From: Pyrinomonadaceae bacterium
GTDB taxonomy: Bacteria; Acidobacteriota; Blastocatellia; Pyrinomonadales; Pyrinomonadaceae
Length of the DNA: 64,000 nt
NCBI GenBank assembly: GCA_021228405.1
Contig: JAJQRF010000002.1
Location: 682,001-746,000 of the forward strand
Direction: 5' to 3'
Position numbers and translations under genes: made by a program. Positions 5,760 through 56,937 of this stretch are shown here, one piece after another. Position 1 is the first letter of the stretch. The number at the start of each line of letters is the position of its first letter. Below the pieces are notes generated by a model. That model was not told the origin of the DNA. It saw only the letters and a program-made list of their open reading frames with translations, and did not search any database.

Positions 5760-6014
5760 ATGGTATTAGGTGTTGGTGGATTATTGATGTTAATTTCTAT
5801 CGTTTGGTTTATTGTTCTGAGCTTTCAGCTCGGCGGAAGCACGGGGGAAAAGGTCATCTGGGCAATTGTCAACTTTTTGTTTCAGCCGATCGCGGGAATA
5901 ATTTTCTTTTTCGTGAAAAAAGCCGGATTGGTTCCGATGATCTTAGGGATTATCGGGGTGGTTTTCTACGGCTACGGAATGTTTACATCTTTAGGGGACG
6001 TGTTGCCCAGATAA
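5760..6014 (+). CDS. Small integral membrane protein
   Basis: An 84-residue hydrophobic protein with an N-terminal membrane helix (about 1-24) and one or two more between residues 33 and 78, joined by short charged loops. It carries no motif I can assign. The ATG is well supported by GGAGG about 8 bases upstream. It stands six bases before the VanZ-like gene and probably shares its transcript. It may be a subunit or assembly partner of that protein, but only adjacency suggests this. Confidence 0.75.
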   Translation: MVLGVGGLLMLISIVWFIVLSFQLGGSTGEKVIWAIVNFLFQPIAGIIFFFVKKAGLVPMILGIIGVVFYGYGMFTSLGDVLPR

Positions 6015-6020
6015 TTTTTG

Positions 6021-6485
6021 ATGACTGTTTTGGAAAAGTCGAAATGGCGCGGACGCATTTTACGTTACGCGCCTTTAATTTTGTGGGCGGGCGCGGTTTT
6101 TCTGGCTTCTTCGACAACGGGTTCGATGTCGAACACCTCGCGCATCATTCGCCCTTTGCTCGAATGGCTGTTCCCGCACACGCCCGAAGACGTGCTCACC
6201 GTTTACCACGGCTATATACGCAAATTCGCGCATTTCTTTGAATATGCCGTTCTCGCCTTTCTTGCTTCACGCGCTTTTCGGGGTTCGTCGGTCGGTTTAT
6301 TGCAAAGATTCTGGACGGTTCTCGCTTTCTTCGTCGTGCTGACGATCGCCTCGATCGACGAATACAATCAAAGCTTCAACCCGGCGCGAACAGGCTCGGT
6401 CTATGACATCTTGCTCGACTGTGCAGGCGGTTTGGCGATGATTCTGTCGATTTTGATATACAAAAATAAAACAGCAAAGAAATAA
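6021..6485 (+). CDS. VanZ-like family membrane protein
   Basis: 154 residues with three to four membrane helices. It carries the VanZ-family pattern: R-K-x-A-H-F-F-E-Y in a helix, then IDEYNQSFNPARTGSVYDILLD, matching the DE(x)xQ(x)F...R(x)(x)S...D signature. VanZ proteins are named for low-level teicoplanin resistance, but most family members have no known activity. The ATG at 6021 is preferred to a TTG at 6018. A 21-bp repeat array starts two bases after its stop codon. Confidence 0.85.
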   Translation: MTVLEKSKWRGRILRYAPLILWAGAVFLASSTTGSMSNTSRIIRPLLEWLFPHTPEDVLTVYHGYIRKFAHFFEYAVLAFLASRAFRGSSVGLLQRFWTVLAFFVVLTIASIDEYNQSFNPARTGSVYDILLDCAGGLAMILSILIYKNKTAKK

Positions 6486-6487
6486 AG

Positions 6488-6865
6488 GTTAAATCGCAAC
6501 TCAAAGCAGTAAAAAGCCGGCTTGAAGAGGCGGAAAGCCTACTCAAAAGGGTTGAAACGCAACTTGAAGAGGTTGAAACGTAACTCGAAGGCGTTGAAAG
6601 ATAACTTGAAGAGGTTGGAACGTAACTCGAAGGCGTTGAAAGATAACTTGAAGGGGTTGAAACGTAACTCGAAGGTGTTGAAAGATAACTTGAAGGGGTT
6701 GGAACGTATCCCGAACCCGTTGGAACGCATCCCGAAACAGTTGAAAGCAATCCGCTAGGCGTTGGAATCGATCCGCTAACAGTTAAATTGCATCCGCTAG
6801 GCGTTGAAACGTTTCCGCTACCCGTTGGAAGGCATCCGTTACCCCTTGAAATGTTTCCGCCCGAA
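6488..6865. repeat. Degenerate 21-bp tandem array A
   Basis: About 18 units of 21 bp. The GTTGAAA-type start recurs at 6551, 6572, 6593, 6614 and every 21 bases to 6845 without one indel; weaker units at 6488, 6509 and 6530 keep the phase. A typical unit is GTTGAAACGTAACTCGAAGG plus one base. GAA triplets fall about every 10-11 bases. It starts two bases after the VanZ stop. Reading frames through it are open on both strands for part of its length only. The remaining gap to 7000 holds nothing else I recognise apart from a ribosome-binding site near the next start. Confidence 0.95.
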
Positions 6866-7000
6866 GATGCACAAGTAATTAAGGCAAAAAGATCGATTGG
6901 AGTTTGTCACAAATACAAATCATTGGCTGAAAACTTCCATTTATCGAAACTTTATGCGATATTTTATCGTTAGGAATACCTAGAAAGGAGACTAAACAAA

Positions 7001-8158
7001 ATGAGTTTTTTCGACAAAGTAAAAGAAGCGGCATTTAATCAGTTTATCGAGGTCATCGAGTGGCTCGACAACTCGGGCGACACGATTCTCTACCGCTTTC
7101 CGGTTTACCAACAGGAAATTAAAAACGGTGCACAACTTATCGTGCGCGAATCGCAAGCGGCGGTTTTCGTCTTTGAAGGACAGGTTGCCGACGTTTTCAC
7201 GCCCGGTCGCTACACGATCGACGGCGGAAATACGCCGATTCTTTCAAAGCTCGGCGCGTGGAAATACGGTTTCAATTCGCCGATGAAATCGGAAGTTTAT
7301 TTCGTCAATACGAAACAATTTACCGATATGAAATGGGGAACTTCCAACCCGATTATGCTCCGCGACGCTGATTTCGGCATCGTTCGCCTGCGCGCTTTCG
7401 GCGCATACAGTCTGCGCGTTGCCGATCCTGCAATGTTCATCAAGGAAGTCGCAGGAACGAACGCCCATTTCCAAACCGAAGACATTGACGAACAACTCAA
7501 ACGCGGCATCGTCACCGAATTTTCCGACGCGATCGGCGAAATGAAAATTCCCGCGCTCGATCTCGCCGCCCAATACAAGGAATTAGGCGAAGCGATCCGC
7601 GCCAAGATCAACGAAGATTTCAGCACTTACGGTTTACAGGTCACGAAATTCTACGTCGAAAACATTTCACTTCCGCCCGAAGTCGAAGCCGCAATGGACA
7701 AACGCGCTTCGATGGGTGCACTCGGAAACGTGGACAACTATATGAAGTTCCAAGCCGCTGACGCGCTTCGCGATGCCGCTCAAAACGAAGGCGGCGGCGC
7801 AGGTTTAGGCGCAGGTTTAGGCGCAGGTTTCGCGGTCGGCAACCAGATGGCAAACGCTTTCGGCGGAATGCAGGGCGGTCAGGGACAGCAGGGCGGCGGA
7901 CAGCAGACACAAACCGTTCCGTGTCCGTCTTGCGGAAAACAAAACGCCGTCGGTACAAAATTCTGCGGCGATTGCGGAAGCAAGATGGAAGTTGCCAAAG
8001 TTCCCTGCGTAAAATGCGGCGCGGAACTGCGTGAAGGCGCAAAGTTCTGTTCGGAATGCGGTTCCTCGCAGGAAAAACAAAAATGCGCCAACTGCCAAGC
8101 CGAACTCAATCCCGGTGCAAAATTCTGCAACGAATGCGGCACGAAGGTTGAAAGTTAA
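7001..8158 (+). CDS. SPFH/Band-7 domain protein with C-terminal zinc ribbons
   Basis: A cytoplasmic 385-residue protein without signal peptide or membrane helix. Residues about 20-245 form an SPFH (stomatin/prohibitin/flotillin) domain of the bacterial virion-core-protein-like or YdjI type (VPxPGRYTIDGGNTP-like start, later YGLQVTKFYVENISLPPEVEAAMDKR). A Gly-rich linker leads into three zinc-ribbon units from about residue 307 (CPSC...CGDC, CVKC...CSEC, CANC...CNEC). Homologues probably form scaffold or membrane-associated assemblies; B. subtilis YdjI is of this type, from memory. AAAGGAG precedes the ATG. It sits alone between the 21-bp array and a bidirectional terminator. Confidence 0.88.
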   Translation: MSFFDKVKEAAFNQFIEVIEWLDNSGDTILYRFPVYQQEIKNGAQLIVRESQAAVFVFEGQVADVFTPGRYTIDGGNTPILSKLGAWKYGFNSPMKSEVYFVNTKQFTDMKWGTSNPIMLRDADFGIVRLRAFGAYSLRVADPAMFIKEVAGTNAHFQTEDIDEQLKRGIVTEFSDAIGEMKIPALDLAAQYKELGEAIRAKINEDFSTYGLQVTKFYVENISLPPEVEAAMDKRASMGALGNVDNYMKFQAADALRDAAQNEGGGAGLGAGLGAGFAVGNQMANAFGGMQGGQGQQGGGQQTQTVPCPSCGKQNAVGTKFCGDCGSKMEVAKVPCVKCGAELREGAKFCSECGSSQEKQKCANCQAELNPGAKFCNECGTKVES

Positions 8159-48398: not shown

Positions 48399-48477
48399 GT
48401 TTGATTTTGCTTGTAAGGATACGGGGGCACGAAGGTTTTCATATTTTCTTCGTGCCTTTGTGTTTTTTACTGATTGA

Positions 48478-48730
48478 TAACTATTTCCCGTGCGGTCGTT
48501 TGAACCGCCGATGCGGTCATTTGAACTTCCCGCACATCGATTTGAATTGCCGATGCGTTCATTTCCACTTCCGATACGGGCATTTGAACTCACGATACAT
48601 CCGTTTGAACCGCCGACACATTCATTTGAACTTCCGACACATTCATTTGAATCGGCGATACGTCCGTTTGAACTTCCCGCACGTCCATTTGAACCGGCGG
48701 GACACTATCGGTAAAGCGCGGGACACTATC
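48478..48730. repeat. Degenerate 21-bp tandem array B
   Basis: TTTGAAC or a variant recurs at 48499, 48520, 48541, 48562, 48583, 48604, 48625, 48646, 48667 and 48688: exact 21-base steps. At the right end GGGACACTATC occurs at 48699 and 48720, again 21 apart, and the second copy contains the TAG stop of the leftward gene. The array is thus the 3' region of that gene. It has no spacers and is not CRISPR. Confidence 0.95.
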
Positions 48731-49496
48731 CTTTATTTTTCCGGCGCGGCGCAGGTTCAAACTCCAGCCCGCGTATTTGTTCGTATTGCGGGCTGTCCGT
48801 CCCGTATGCGGAGATGGTGTAATCTTTGAACGCCTTCCATATCTCGTAGAGCGAATCTTCGGCGAGATAAAAGATTTCATCGCGTTCGTCGAGCTTGTTG
48901 TCAACGGGAATAAAGGTTTGCGTAACGGCTTCGGTTTTAGCCTTCAAACCGTCGGAATAGGTTTGCATCGCCGTCGGTTTGAGGTCGGCTTCGTTCGGGT
49001 TAAAGCCGTATTCTTCGGCAATGGCGATTGCCGAATCGAGATTTTCGATGCGGTTCGTGCGGCTCATTTGCGAAGTCGAATGACTTTTTTCGGGAACTTC
49101 GAGCGTTGCCGCCGAATTTTTAGGTTTACTCGCTCCTTTGACCTTGCGCGTGTATGTCTTCAAATCTTCGACCGCCGAATCAGCCGCGCCCGACGCTTTG
49201 AAACCGCGTTCAAAGCGCGTCACGAGCGGCGAAAGTTCGTCAAACGCATCTTCCGCCGCGCTTGCCGCGACGCGATACGGAGCGCGGACTTCGATCAATC
49301 CGTCCCTGACGGTTTCGGCATCGGTAATTCTCTGTGCAATAAAATTGATTTTCAGGATCGGGTTGGTCGAATTGAACGATGCACCCCAACTTTGTCCGTA
49401 ACCGTGCATTTTCCTGATGGTTTCGACGTTTTTGGCGTGTCCTCTTTCCTCGGTCGAACGCTTCAAAGGCGTGTTATTCGGTGTATCTTCGGGCAT
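48726..49496 (-). CDS. Conserved hypothetical protein (Bacteroidetes-type family suspected)
   Basis: 256 residues from the ATG at 49496, with GGAGG upstream; the frame is open for 13 more codons. It has no signal peptide. Helical throughout: HGYGQSWGASFNSTNPILKINFI, RAPYRVAASAAEDAFDELSPL, TSQMSRTNRIENLDSAIAIAEEYGFNPNEADLK, LYEIWKAFKDYTISAYGTDSPQYEQIRGLEF. I remember proteins of this pattern mainly from Bacteroidetes, so transfer is possible but unchecked. Its stop codon lies inside the 21-bp array B. The function is unknown. Confidence 0.7.
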   Translation of the reverse strand: MPEDTPNNTPLKRSTEERGHAKNVETIRKMHGYGQSWGASFNSTNPILKINFIAQRITDAETVRDGLIEVRAPYRVAASAAEDAFDELSPLVTRFERGFKASGAADSAVEDLKTYTRKVKGASKPKNSAATLEVPEKSHSTSQMSRTNRIENLDSAIAIAEEYGFNPNEADLKPTAMQTYSDGLKAKTEAVTQTFIPVDNKLDERDEIFYLAEDSLYEIWKAFKDYTISAYGTDSPQYEQIRGLEFEPAPRRKNKG

Positions 49497-49651
49497 ACTT
49501 TGATTTTTCCTCCGTGTCCGGGGGGAATTTATCAAACAACGCCAAAAGATTTAGTTGTTATCCTAAAAACGCACCGGATAATTAGTAAATTGTTTTTAAC
49601 ATTTGCGAAAATCATAATACGACAAGACCTTTTGTAATGTAAAGAAAAAAA

Positions 49652-49798
49652 ATAAGTGAGAACGGATAAGTGATAAGTGATAACGGATAACGGATAACTG
49701 ATAACTGATAACGAAAAACATTTCAATATCAGTTATCCACTATCAACTATCAGTTATTCGTTATCCGTTATCAGTTATCCACTATCAACTATCAGTTA
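49652..49798. repeat. Heptanucleotide GATAACT-family inverted repeat at the SBBP gene end
   Basis: The left half (49652-49713) is made of 7-mers such as CGGATAA, GTGATAA, CTGATAA; the right half (49727-49798) of TATCAGT, TATCCAC, TATCAAC, TATCCGT. All keep a 7-base step. The right half contains the TAA stop of the SBBP gene (49796-49798). Same word family as 629-698. The gap 49497-49795 otherwise holds only an AT-rich stretch. Confidence 0.92.
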
Positions 49799-52714
49799 CG
49801 GCAGCGGTTTGCCGTCCCAGTCGCCGGCGATGGGTTGGTCGGTCGGTTGTCCGAACGGAAAGGCGGTTGCCAAACCTGCGTTGTCGTTGGTGATGAAAAA
49901 CGTGTTGACGGACGGGCGGAAGACGCTGATCGTGTCGATGCCGTCGCCATTGAAATCGCCCGCAAAAGGCAAATCTTCCGCGACACCGAAGATCGCCGTG
50001 ACATCGACCGACGCGTTGAAATCGTTGGTGTTGGTCAAAAAGAAATTGCCTAAACTCGGACGGTAAACGCCGACCGTATCGATGCCGTCGCCGTTCCAAT
50101 CGCCCGCGACGGGAAGATCGCCGTTTTGTCCGAACGTGACGGTGAAATCGACGGGAGGATTGGCAACGAGCGAATTCGTCGCAAAAAATTGTCCTGCCGA
50201 CGGACGGAAAACCGCAATCGTGTCGATGCCGTCGCCGTTCCAATCGCCGACGACGGGCAAATCTCCCGCTTGTCCGAATGTGACGGTGAAAAAGCCGAGC
50301 GGTGCGGGAAGATTGATGATCGGGAAATTGGAATTGCGAAGCTTCCAAGTTCCGTTCGTAAAAGAACCGATGCTGTCGAGCCCGTCGCCGTCGAAATCGC
50401 CCGAAACGCCGCGCTGTCCTGCGATCGGACTCGTAAACGTCGCGTTTTGTGCGATGACGTTCGTGATCGACTGCGTTAAAGAAAACGTCGTGTTCGGGCG
50501 GAAAATGCCGACCGATTCAAGACGCGTGTCGAGAATTTTCGCAACGAAGCCGTCGGGATTGGTCGCGCTCGCGTTCGAGGTCGGTTTGATTACGCCGTTG
50601 GTCGTTAAAAGGTTGTTCGATTGCGTTTCACCTGCAACGTAGATCAGATTTCCTTTGACGGCGATTCCCTTGCCGAAATCGTTGCCGTTGCCACCGATAA
50701 AACTCGACGAAATAACGCCGCGACCGAACCGCACTTTGCTTACGAAAGCATCGCGAACGCCGCGCCGCGTCGGTTGAAACGGAAGCGCGACGGGAAAATC
50801 ATTAGAAAGCGTTCTGCCCGTGACGTAGATCGAACCCGCTTTATCGACTGCAATGTTAAAGCCTTCTTCCTGATCCGCGCCGCCGAGAAAGCTGGAACCG
50901 ACGAGCGCGGTTCCGCTTGTATTTACCATCGTGACAAAGGCTTCGTTGATCTGATTGGTCGTGTCGAAGGCATTGACGAGCGGGAAATTTGCCGAACCCG
51001 TGATGCCCGTGATGTATGCCTGACCGACCGAATCGACGGCGATATTTTTCGCGCTTTCGGTGCCGCTTCCGCCGAGATAGCTCGAATAGATCAACGACGC
51101 TTCGCCGCTTGCCGCCGGATTGAATTTTGCGACCCAAGCATCGTCACCGCCGCCGCTCGCGGGCTGAAAAGCGTTTTTGGTCGGGAAGTTTTCGCCTTTC
51201 GTAAATCCCGCGACATAAGCATTGTTCGCGGAATCGACCGCAACGCCGAACGCCTGATCTTCGACCAGCGCACCGCCGATGCAGGTCGAATAGGTCAGAT
51301 CGCTGCCCGACGCATTAATAACGGTCAGAAATCCGTCGTGGCTGTTGTAATAACCGTAGCCGCAGCCCTGATAGCGGTTTCTTTGCGGAAAAGTGATTCC
51401 TGAATTCGTATCGCCGACCACGTAAGCCTTGCCCGCCGAATCGACCGCGATGTCGAACCCGGTATCTGCCGCCGATGTTCCGCCGATATACGTTGCGTAA
51501 ACAAGATTGCCGTTCCCATCCAGTTTAGCCGCGAAAGCGTCGAAAAAATTGATTCCCGTCACGGTGCTGAACGCGCCCGGCGTGGTCGGGAAACCGTGCG
51601 ACGCAAAGCCGGAAACGTAGGCGTTATTAGCGGCATCGAGCGCGATGCCGAAACCGCCGTCGTCGTTATTTCCTTCCAAAAACGTCAGGTAGACAAAATC
51701 CGTTCCATCAGCGTTGAGCTTGGCGACGAAAACGCCGTCTTTATCGTTGTCGTCCCTGGTTTGCCCGTGAAAATTGAGCGAGGCAGTATCGCCGACGATA
51801 TAAGCGTTGCCCTGTTCGTCAGCCGCAACTTCGTTGATCCTGTCCAACGCCGTGCCGCCGATGTATGTCCAATATTCCAAAACCGGATCGATAATTAAAG
51901 TTTGGGATTTGTCATAATTTCCGAGTGAAAAAGAAACTTTGTTCGTCGTTCGTTGTTCGTGGTTCGTTGATAATTTGTAGCCGACGGCGACTTCTTTTCT
52001 TTCGCCGTTGATGATTTGATACGCGACGGGTTTTTGCTGGACGAGTTCGGCGTTTTCGGTTTTGGCAATCAAATCGCCGTTTTCGTCGAGTTTTAATTCT
52101 TTTGCACCGTCGAAATTCAAGGTTATTTGATCTGCGTCCGCGTTCGGTGCAATCTTGAAATCGTATTCGAGTTGATTATTTTTATTTCCGTAAAAAACCG
52201 CGTCGATTCCGTGGTAAAGACCGTTGTAATTGATTTGGCGGTAGTTCGCCAGATTCTCGAAACGCTTTTTGCCGATGTAATAATTCGTTTTCGTGACGGC
52301 TTCCGACTCGCCCGAAATGTGCGGTTTTTTGTTTGCGCCGACGAACTGCATTTTCAGATTTTCTGAAAAGGTCTTTGGTCTTTGGTCTTTGGTCTTTGGT
52401 TCTTTAAATGAAATTTCTTCGGTTTCGTCGGTTTGATTTACCTTTAGCGAAAAAACGGCTTCCGATTCAGCCAGATACAGCGTGTAGCCTTTGCCGCGTG
52501 AAACGAATTTTGCGCGGCTGTCGGTTTGACCTTTGTTTTCTTCAAAAAGTAAGGACATTTTGCCGTAATCTTTTTGAATTGATTGGTTTGCGTCCGAAAC
52601 GGTCGGCGTTTCGTTCGTTTCTGCCGAAACATTCGGAACGAGCGTCGAAAAAAATAAACTGCTCAAAACAGCGAGCGCGGCGAAAAATTTTGCGTTGGAA
52701 TTCTCTTTTAACAT
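49796..52714 (-). CDS. Exported SBBP beta-propeller protein with C-terminal FG-GAP/VCBS repeats
   Basis: 972 residues. A signal peptide (cleavage near SAE) leads into a beta-sandwich domain (about 45-270, LLFEENKGQTDSRAKFVSRGKGYTLYL ... NYRQINYNGLYHGIDAVFYG), a long SBBP propeller (WTYIGGTALDRINEVAADEQGNAYIVGDT-type repeats, about 285-700) and FG-GAP/VCBS repeats (about 760-972). Two heptanucleotide insertions (51941-51975 and 52370-52404) add NHEQRTTNK- and EPKTKDQRPKT-like stretches within the N-terminal domain. Its stop codon is supplied by another heptanucleotide repeat. An 11-bp operator lies 70-120 bases upstream of the start. Confidence 0.88.
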   Translation of the reverse strand: MLKENSNAKFFAALAVLSSLFFSTLVPNVSAETNETPTVSDANQSIQKDYGKMSLLFEENKGQTDSRAKFVSRGKGYTLYLAESEAVFSLKVNQTDETEEISFKEPKTKDQRPKTFSENLKMQFVGANKKPHISGESEAVTKTNYYIGKKRFENLANYRQINYNGLYHGIDAVFYGNKNNQLEYDFKIAPNADADQITLNFDGAKELKLDENGDLIAKTENAELVQQKPVAYQIINGERKEVAVGYKLSTNHEQRTTNKVSFSLGNYDKSQTLIIDPVLEYWTYIGGTALDRINEVAADEQGNAYIVGDTASLNFHGQTRDDNDKDGVFVAKLNADGTDFVYLTFLEGNNDDGGFGIALDAANNAYVSGFASHGFPTTPGAFSTVTGINFFDAFAAKLDGNGNLVYATYIGGTSAADTGFDIAVDSAGKAYVVGDTNSGITFPQRNRYQGCGYGYYNSHDGFLTVINASGSDLTYSTCIGGALVEDQAFGVAVDSANNAYVAGFTKGENFPTKNAFQPASGGGDDAWVAKFNPAASGEASLIYSSYLGGSGTESAKNIAVDSVGQAYITGITGSANFPLVNAFDTTNQINEAFVTMVNTSGTALVGSSFLGGADQEEGFNIAVDKAGSIYVTGRTLSNDFPVALPFQPTRRGVRDAFVSKVRFGRGVISSSFIGGNGNDFGKGIAVKGNLIYVAGETQSNNLLTTNGVIKPTSNASATNPDGFVAKILDTRLESVGIFRPNTTFSLTQSITNVIAQNATFTSPIAGQRGVSGDFDGDGLDSIGSFTNGTWKLRNSNFPIINLPAPLGFFTVTFGQAGDLPVVGDWNGDGIDTIAVFRPSAGQFFATNSLVANPPVDFTVTFGQNGDLPVAGDWNGDGIDTVGVYRPSLGNFFLTNTNDFNASVDVTAIFGVAEDLPFAGDFNGDGIDTISVFRPSVNTFFITNDNAGLATAFPFGQPTDQPIAGDWDGKPLP
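51941..51975. repeat. In-frame heptanucleotide insertion (GTTCGTT words) in the SBBP gene
   Basis: GTTCGTC, GTTCGTT, GTTCGTG, GTTCGTT, GATAATT in 7-base steps inside the coding sequence. Confidence 0.75.
52370..52404. repeat. In-frame heptanucleotide insertion (GGTCTTT words) in the SBBP gene
   Basis: Four perfect GGTCTTT copies and one GGTTCTT in 7-base steps inside the coding sequence. The same word forms the intergenic repeat at 31063-31166. Confidence 0.85.
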
Positions 52715-54787: not shown

Positions 54788-56590
54788 ATGAAAGAGGTTC
54801 CCGGTCAGATTTATAAATTCGGAAAATTTACCGTCGATGCCGCCGAACGTTTGCTGTTTGACGGAAAACAGACGATTTCCCTAACGCCGAAAGCGTTCGA
54901 CACATTGCTTCTGCTGATCGAAAACGGCGGTCACGTTCTCTCGAAAGAAGAGATTATGGAAAAGGTTTGGGCGGATAGTTTTGTCGAGGAAAACAATCTC
55001 GCGCAGAATATTTCCGCGCTCCGCCGCGCACTTGGCGAAGGCGTTGACGGCGCGAAATTTATCGAAACGGTTTCCAAACGCGGTTATCGCTTCATCGCAC
55101 CTGTCGAAACGGGTGAAGCCGAAAAAAACTCGATAATTATCGAAAAAATACACGCAACGGTCGTGATCGAAGAAGAGATCGACACGGACGTTTATCCCGT
55201 TCTCGAGCCGCCGGTGCATAAAAGTTTGCCTCCGAATCAGCCGAATTTAATTTTGAATTCCTTTACGCCCGAAACGCGTTACGCGCAAAACGGCGACGTA
55301 AATATCGCTTATCAGGTCATCGGCGACGGCGATCTCGACATCGTTTTCGTGATGGGCTGGATTTCGCATCTCGAATATTTCTGGAAACATCCGTCGTTCG
55401 CTTCGTTTCTGAATCGGCTTGCGTCTTTTTCGCGTTTGATACTTTTCGATAAACGCGGAACGGGACTTTCCGACCGAGTTCCGAACAAGGATTTGCCGAC
55501 GCTCGAACAGCGTATGGAAGACGTGCACACGGTGATGAACGCCGTCGGTTCGGAAAACGCGGTGCTGATCGGCGTTTCCGAAGGCGGTCCGATGTGTTCG
55601 CTCTTTGCCGCAACTTATCCCGACCGCACGACCGCACTCGTGATGATCGGAACTTATGCGAAACGCATCAAGGACGAAGATTATCCGTGGGGCGTATCAA
55701 TGGAAGACCGCGAAGCGTTTTTCGAGATGATGTATCGTGATTGGGGCAAGCCCGTCGGCATCGAAGAACGTGCGCCTTCGATGGCTTCGGACGAAGAATT
55801 CCGCAATTGGTGGGCGACATATTTGAGAATGGGCGCAAGTCCGGGCGCGGCGGTCGCGCTGACGAAAATGAACGCGGAGATCGATGTGCGAAACGTTTTG
55901 CCTTCGATTCGCGTGCCGACGCTCGTGATTCACCGCAGCGGCGATATGTGTCTGAAGGTCGAAGAAGGCAGATTTGTCGCGTCTTTGATTCCCGCTTGCA
56001 AATACGTTGAACTCGGCGGCATCGACCATTTGCCGTTCGTCGGCGATTCCGAAGAGATTCTCGAAGAGATCGAGGAATTTCTGACGGGCGTTCGGCAAAA
56101 TGCCGATTACGACCGCGTTTTGGCAACCGTGATGAATATTAAAATCGTTAATCCGCAAGCCGAAGCCGACGAGCGCGGCGCGGAAGATTGGCAGGAATTG
56201 CTCGAACGTTCGCACGTTTACGTTCAGCGTCAGCTTCAGCTTTTCAAGGGAAAGGAAGTTTCGTATGACGAAAACGGCGTGCTCGCAACTTTCGACGGAC
56301 CGGCGCGGGCGATTCGTTGCGCGGTTGCGATCACAAACTCGGCAAGACGGCTCGGCGTGCGCGTGAAAACGGGCGTTCACACGGGCGAATGCGACGTTTT
56401 CGACGGGAAATACAGCGGAATCGCGGTCGAAATCGCCCAGAAAATCGCCGAAGAATCCGCCTTGGGCGAAATTCTCGCCTCACGAACCGTCAAGGATTTG
56501 GTCGCGGGTTCGGGCATCAATTTTGAAGAACGCGGCAAAAAACAATTCTCCGAACTCGCGGGCGAATGGCGGCTTTTCACGGTCAAATAA
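54788..56590 (+). CDS. Winged-helix / alpha-beta hydrolase / degenerate adenylate-cyclase fusion
   Basis: 600 residues, cytoplasmic. Winged helix Trans_reg_C at about 8-105 (FGKFTVDAAERLLFDGKQTISLTPKAFDTLL ... ALRRALGEGVDG ... TVSKRGYRFIAPV). Alpha/beta hydrolase at about 160-440, with Ser264 in GVSEGG and a likely His in GGIDHLPF. Class III cyclase-like domain at about 445-600 (GPARAIRCAVAI, KTGVHTGECDV, ASRTVKDLVAGSG, GEWRLFTV). Both metal-binding sites are lost: the usual FTDIV aspartate is Lys452 in MNIKIVN, and the usual GDG loop is ENG at 495-497. The cyclase is therefore probably a ligand or dimerisation domain. An 11-bp operator abuts its start; a 21-bp array follows its stop. Confidence 0.9.
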   Translation: MKEVPGQIYKFGKFTVDAAERLLFDGKQTISLTPKAFDTLLLLIENGGHVLSKEEIMEKVWADSFVEENNLAQNISALRRALGEGVDGAKFIETVSKRGYRFIAPVETGEAEKNSIIIEKIHATVVIEEEIDTDVYPVLEPPVHKSLPPNQPNLILNSFTPETRYAQNGDVNIAYQVIGDGDLDIVFVMGWISHLEYFWKHPSFASFLNRLASFSRLILFDKRGTGLSDRVPNKDLPTLEQRMEDVHTVMNAVGSENAVLIGVSEGGPMCSLFAATYPDRTTALVMIGTYAKRIKDEDYPWGVSMEDREAFFEMMYRDWGKPVGIEERAPSMASDEEFRNWWATYLRMGASPGAAVALTKMNAEIDVRNVLPSIRVPTLVIHRSGDMCLKVEEGRFVASLIPACKYVELGGIDHLPFVGDSEEILEEIEEFLTGVRQNADYDRVLATVMNIKIVNPQAEADERGAEDWQELLERSHVYVQRQLQLFKGKEVSYDENGVLATFDGPARAIRCAVAITNSARRLGVRVKTGVHTGECDVFDGKYSGIAVEIAQKIAEESALGEILASRTVKDLVAGSGINFEERGKKQFSELAGEWRLFTVK

Positions 56591-56594
56591 AACA

Positions 56595-56893
56595 TTTTCC
56601 GAACGTAGGAAATCAATTTCTAAAAGCAGAAAAACATTTTCCGAACGTAGGAAATCAATTTCTGAACGCAGAAATTCTTTTCCTGAACGTAGAAATTCAG
56701 TTTCCGAACGCAGGAAATCAATTTCTGAGCACAAGAAAACATTTTCCGAACACAGGAAATCAATTTCTGAACTCAAAAAATCAATTTCTGAATACAGGAA
56801 ATGTTTTCCGAACGCAGGAAATGTTTTTCTGAACTCTGAAAAATTCTTTCTGAACTCTGAAAAATTCTTTCTGAACTCGGAAAATGCTTTGAA
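56595..56893. repeat. Degenerate 21-bp tandem array C
   Basis: CGAAC/TGAAC cores recur at 56600, 56621 (degenerate), 56642, 56663, 56684, 56705, 56726, 56747, 56768 and 56789 in exact 21-base steps; one unit near 56800 is one base short, then the step resumes to about 56893. Each unit holds a TTTCC...GGAAA hairpin-like pair. It starts four bases after the winged-helix/cyclase stop. A terminator at 56899-56932 completes the 362-base gap. Confidence 0.95.
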
Positions 56894-56898
56894 ATCAA

Positions 56899-56937
56899 AA
56901 AGCGGTCTTAAATTTTCGTTTAAGACCGCTTTAATTT
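56899..56937. terminator. Bidirectional terminator
   Basis: AAAGCGGTCTTAAA (56899-56912) pairs perfectly with 56919-56932; T-rich exit. It lies between convergent genes. Confidence 0.9.

Follow-up and report, generated by a model that had tools for sequence, protein, structure and literature searches.

The spacer between a VanZ-family gene and an SPFH/Band 7 gene in a Pyrinomonadaceae bacterium contains a tandem array, hereafter array A, that is best read as a genuine intergenic minisatellite belonging to a class of repeats whose unit spans two turns of the DNA helix, a class apparently restricted to this lineage. We hold with moderate confidence the whole explanation that array A grew by local duplication with its period set by helical phase. 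The window, by which we mean the entire 64,000-nucleotide stretch analyzed, contains three further period-21 arrays in addition to array A (Table 1).

Architecture of array A and its locus

The original prediction of eighteen 21-bp units without an indel at 6488–6865 was borne out by lag identity, a Markov null and profile alignment. Self-identity reached 0.678 at lag 21 and 0.735 at lag 42, against a maximum of 0.387 at any lag from 5 to 99 among 2000 Markov sequences with the dinucleotide make-up of the array, and a profile alignment of 6488–6865 in which indels were allowed placed none. The ends are sharp, with flanking 21-mers scoring at or below chance in every phase, and the predicted start two bases past a stop codon is confirmed by the VanZ TAA at 6483–6485. 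Identity at lag 7 (0.26) is at background level, revealing no 7-bp sub-period in array A. We rejected a CRISPR array, as the units abut without spacers and drift.

Within the core, units two apart are identical at 19–21 of 21 positions, and the outer units are more diverged than these near-identical dimers. GAA triplets, which had been predicted to recur at each helical turn, fall in unit columns 3/4 and 15 in 25 of 26 copies, so that successive gaps are mainly 9–12 bp (19 of 25). This part of the prediction is thus only roughly right, and it fails toward the end of the array, where the GAA of the second half-unit is replaced by CCGCTA in most of the last units.

Table 1. Features of the vanZ–SPFH locus and the other period-21 arrays of the window.
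Feature	Position	Strand	Description
VanZ-family gene (PF04892)	6018–6485	+	E 4.9e-14; stop codon 2 bp ahead of array A
Array A	6488–6865	+	18 head-to-tail 21-bp units; family consensus over four loci GTTGAAACGCAACTCGAAGGC
Homogenized core of array A	6572–6697	+	three 42-bp dimers, units alternating GTTG(A/G)AACGTAACTCGAAGG(C/T) / GTTGAAAGATAACTTGAAG(A/G)G
Diverged part of array A	6698–6865	+	CCCGAA/CCGCTA variants
Spacer remainder after array A	6866–7000	+	135 bp; aligns with relatives near its 3' end
SPFH/Band 7 protein, double zinc ribbon (PF13421, PF12773)	7001–8158	+	domain matches
Period-21 array	48491–48730 (wider extent 48470–48749)		consensus unit TACATTCATTTGAACTGCCGA; hairpin not formed
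Heptamer array (ATAACTG)n, then inverted complement	49652–49798 (wider extent 49594–49845)		also period 21; strong hairpin
Period-21 array	56589–56884 (wider extent 56541–56931)		TTTCTGAACGCAGGAAA-type dyad-symmetric unit; strongly folding; one 1-bp deletion

Array A is one of a sequence family of four loci, the A family, with sister arrays at C4:573k, C4:1178k and C12:117k. Unit variants are common to these arrays, their flanks are unrelated, and they occur in both orientations relative to genes; the unit GTTGAAACGTTTCCGCTACCC at 6803, for example, has an exact copy in the sister at C4:1178k. A separate array of 25–26 bp units (GGAAAGGGCTTTGCCCGCTGATATGC), at L067:5636–5906 (G000:C4:573636–573906), adjoins the A-family sister there.

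The vanZ–SPFH spacer here measures 515 bp (2 bp, the 378 bp of array A, and 135 bp). The gene pair is kept in relatives, where the spacer is 76–241 bp in most of the 20 measured loci with both genes and 1.3–3.5 kb in four, two of these on the same contig, and most orthologous spacers in other genera have no array. Several relatives (L003–L006, L043) share the block GAAACTTTATGCGATATTTTATCGTTAGG at 6946–6974 ahead of their SPFH gene; its conserved part reads GAAACTTT...CGTTAG, and AAAGGAG, a ribosome-binding site, follows on its 3' side. This block resembles, and may be, an ECF-sigma promoter. As the conserved promoter-like block lies within the 135-bp remainder, array A is an expansion of the spacer on the far side of the block. 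An Rfam search over 6000–7100 returned one sub-threshold chance match and nothing else.

The most similar SPFH protein found, that of relative L003 (92% identity over the 192 residues available), has a short, degenerate period-21 signal in its vanZ–SPFH spacer with units that differ from those of array A, and in relatives L004, L043 and L058 this spacer is occupied by repeats of 7 or 9 bp. Taken together, these sequences make the spacer seem prone to such arrays.

A genome-wide class with units of two helical turns

The genome comprises 5.72 Mb in 20 contigs, of which our scan covered 1.6 Mb (28%), with genes called by our own hexamer model. At a threshold of at least 60% identity over 105 bp, we identified 34 arrays of period 21 in this 1.6 Mb and none of period 19, 22 or 23, while lag 20 gave seven matches corresponding to six separate arrays and one overlap. 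A weaker scan at 50% yielded 46 intergenic matches at lag 21, 14 at lag 20 and 4 at lag 22, with one each at lags 18 and 19 and none at 23 or 24. TRF agrees with the period-21 preference in this genome and additionally reports 76 heptamer arrays in 1.6 Mb, a type that is also found in relatives. Across 780 kb from four relatives there were only 4 lag-21 matches, at least two of them heptamer-based. No period-21 arrays were found near the orthologues of the genes flanking five other arrays in the L003 genome (G142), a comparison that covered the spacers other than that of match L211, which lies at a contig end. The literature searched contained no description of such a class of period-20/21 arrays.

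Thirty of the 34 period-21 arrays are intergenic, against 12–16% non-coding DNA (p ~1e-21), and these lie in 17 tandem and 13 convergent contexts and in no divergent one, where 23% would be expected (p = 3e-4). The gene contexts have no evident common theme, and a start just past a stop codon does not extend from array A to the class as a rule (10 of 17 tandem-gene arrays lie nearer the stop, p = 0.31). From one locus to another the units are for the most part unrelated, the A family being the exception. REP-type transposases (PF01797) were considered as a lineage-specific cause and discarded; they have 9 matches here but are common in relatives too.

Contigs C7 and C4 also carry numerous hairpins between genes, with arms built of 9- or 10-bp direct repeats (CACAGATGAA..., ACACGAAA...), among them C4:227987–228128 and C7:492256–492384, and these are perhaps a common gene-end element of the lineage.

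Growth of the arrays by local duplication

Across the class, unit identity falls from 0.685 at a unit distance of 2 to 0.589 at distances of at least 5 (p = 2e-6), and edge units are less conserved than inner ones (p = 3e-5); within array A, unit identity drops from 0.74 to about 0.5 with unit distance. The decay of similarity with distance and the least-conserved edges support a model in which local duplication or unequal exchange extends the arrays, and together with the 42-bp dimers they uphold the suggestion that repeated unequal exchange shaped array A.

Small indels are rare in these arrays. Counting substitutions as minimal spanning-tree lengths, we found that 36 arrays held 6 small indels and 1378 minimal substitutions, and TRF-defined arrays 2 and 895. 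The heptamer arrays of this genome are equally free of them (0 against 81), which indicates that a scarcity of indels does not set period 21 apart. Moreover, loops of 1–3 nt are those best removed by mismatch repair (PMC4060949), providing a neutral reason for the rarity of small indels.

Helical phase and conserved columns

Column conservation in 30 period-21 arrays has a 10.5-bp power of 0.206 versus 0.1 (permutation p < 0.001), rising to 0.239 in the nine non-hairpin arrays, and the six period-20 arrays show a power of 0.407 at 10 bp. The 10.5-bp signal is in part smooth variation along the unit; the comparison of h2 with h1 over all arrays gave p = 0.088, and h1 to h3 were all raised in a second period-21 set. 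In the A family alone the signal reaches p = 0.08 at 10.5 bp and p = 0.02 at 5.25 bp. The proposal that one face of the helix presents the same bases throughout thus survives as a class-wide rhythm, weakened by its smooth component and by the A-family value. Selection on spacing, which had been read from strict phase despite drift, agrees with the 20–21 bp preference and the 10.5-bp rhythm but gains nothing from an unspecific indel-poverty, and so is possible rather than established.

Across the 64 units of the four A-family loci, changes per column number 0 at C12, 2 at A17 and 3 at G0, compared with 20–25 in the other columns (chi2 p = 8.5e-11 for unevenness). The quiet columns (0–2, 5–6, 11–13 and 16–17) recur every half turn. 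Uneven column rates of this kind fit sequence-specific constraint better than neutral drift; the substitution pattern by unit position, put forward earlier as a check, is therefore strongly uneven in this family, although its 10.5-bp periodicity there falls short as given above.

These observations raise the possibility, in our judgment a rather unlikely one, that array A is a set of helically phased sites for a protein binding one DNA face, nucleoid-associated or regulatory, with selection maintaining both the 21-bp step and the few bases contacted (GTT, the invariant C, and AA). Such sites would account for the uneven changes and the quiet columns at each half turn, as well as for the class-wide rhythm, and the occurrence of the family in both orientations relative to genes suits an architectural role. 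However, most orthologous spacers in relatives are array-free, the gene contexts lack an evident common theme, and mutational context can also give uneven rates. Furthermore, as the units of the other arrays are unrelated, a single sequence-specific reader cannot serve the class.

The original prediction had also named DNA shape. Predicted intrinsic curvature exceeded that of column-permuted arrays, but the excess disappeared against dinucleotide-preserving shuffles, and relative to dinucleotide-matched units the class mean z was −0.01 and that of array A −0.61. Shape in the form of intrinsic curvature is thus unsupported once dinucleotides are held constant.

Coding and folding potential

A decayed coding repeat, in which 21 bp would correspond to one coiled-coil heptad, is a very unlikely origin for array A. 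The start of its frame 1 reads VKSQLKA VKSRLEE AESLLKR VETQLEE, this frame is heptad-like over the first 4–7 units in arrays A and L067, and fully open frames in the class number 55 where 43.5 ± 5.0 are expected (p = 0.015); in array A one reverse frame is open throughout. Frame 1, by contrast, has stops, with an in-frame TAA in each of the six units that follow the heptad-like start. We detected no third-position pattern of change (in the family the three codon positions give 0.90, 1.21 and 1.06 bits; for the class, p = 0.93), and the heptads have no match outside A-family arrays in 1.6 Mb. The class also includes arrays of period 20, which is not a multiple of three, and this speaks against a codon-frame cause.

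The most improbable reading makes array A a hairpin-type extragenic element, REP- or terminator-like, that works at the RNA level where genes end. In its favor, 24 of 34 class arrays fold better than their own column-permuted versions (p ≤ 0.05), 45% of array consensus units against 4% of random post-stop 21-mers have a dyad z above 2, and convergent gene ends are over-represented among class arrays. Array A, however, is less stable when folded than most of its shuffles, with z of +1.9 and +1.3 on the two strands, and does no better than its periodic null (p = 0.35). Its unit has no dyad symmetry (p = 0.31), no terminator-like site (a GC-rich stem and then a T run) occurs in 6400–7050, and the dyad units of the class lack compensatory covariation.

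Comparison with known repeats

The VNTR loci of one genome generally have mixed periods, whereas a single period (20–21 bp) dominates this genome, with units that are mostly unrelated between loci. In other respects the arrays, mostly intergenic, resemble bacterial minisatellites/VNTR used in MLVA typing (PMC3689786, PMC1853098), which are likewise head-to-tail with units of tens of bp; the likeness extends to the signs of local duplication, to edge decay, and to an array A unit of more than 9 bp. Heptameric repeats (STRR) of cyanobacteria and Xanthomonas (PMC4692102) are similarly intergenic tandem arrays with one preferred unit length, but the array A unit is 21 bp without a 7-bp sub-period. 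REP/BIME elements (PMC3733652, PMC3116915) are short and extragenic too, and many class arrays, array A not among them, likewise have dyad units and fold strongly; in contrast to REP/BIME, the class is strictly head-to-tail at 21 bp with mostly locus-specific sequences, and array A lacks a palindromic unit. Helically phased A-tracts and curved DNA (PMC3940949) also repeat features at the helical period, yet the curvature predicted here does not exceed that of dinucleotide-matched units.

Discussion

Our preferred explanation, a minisatellite of the two-turn class, has three steps. In the first, which is supported, array A would grow and stay homogeneous as one or two whole units (21 or 42 bp) are duplicated locally through replication slippage or unequal exchange, with point mutations diversifying the units and the edges decaying. 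In the second, also supported, it would belong to a genome-wide class with a two-turn unit (usually 21 bp, less commonly 20), located in spacers away from divergent promoters, with the A sequence family at four loci of unrelated flanks. In the third, which we infer from statistics, the common period would be imposed by helical phase. Since slippage by itself would favor no particular unit length, a step of this kind is needed: it may be that only those duplications are fixed or tolerated which stay in register with a factor attached to one DNA face, or the duplicating machinery may itself measure two turns.

A more speculative and doubtful extension is that the arrays form an architectural system of the lineage's own, in which they differ in sequence, the unit is held at two turns, and helical phase is recognized instead of sequence; the reader of such a system would be a protein, or its maker an enzyme, sensing one face of the duplex.

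Bacterial tandem repeats are normally put down to slippage, without a favorite unit length. A genome with many arrays of unrelated sequence at 20–21 bp suggests either that duplication itself gauges two turns of the helix or that helical phase is under selection, and the interesting question is why this bacterium makes repeats exactly two DNA turns long.
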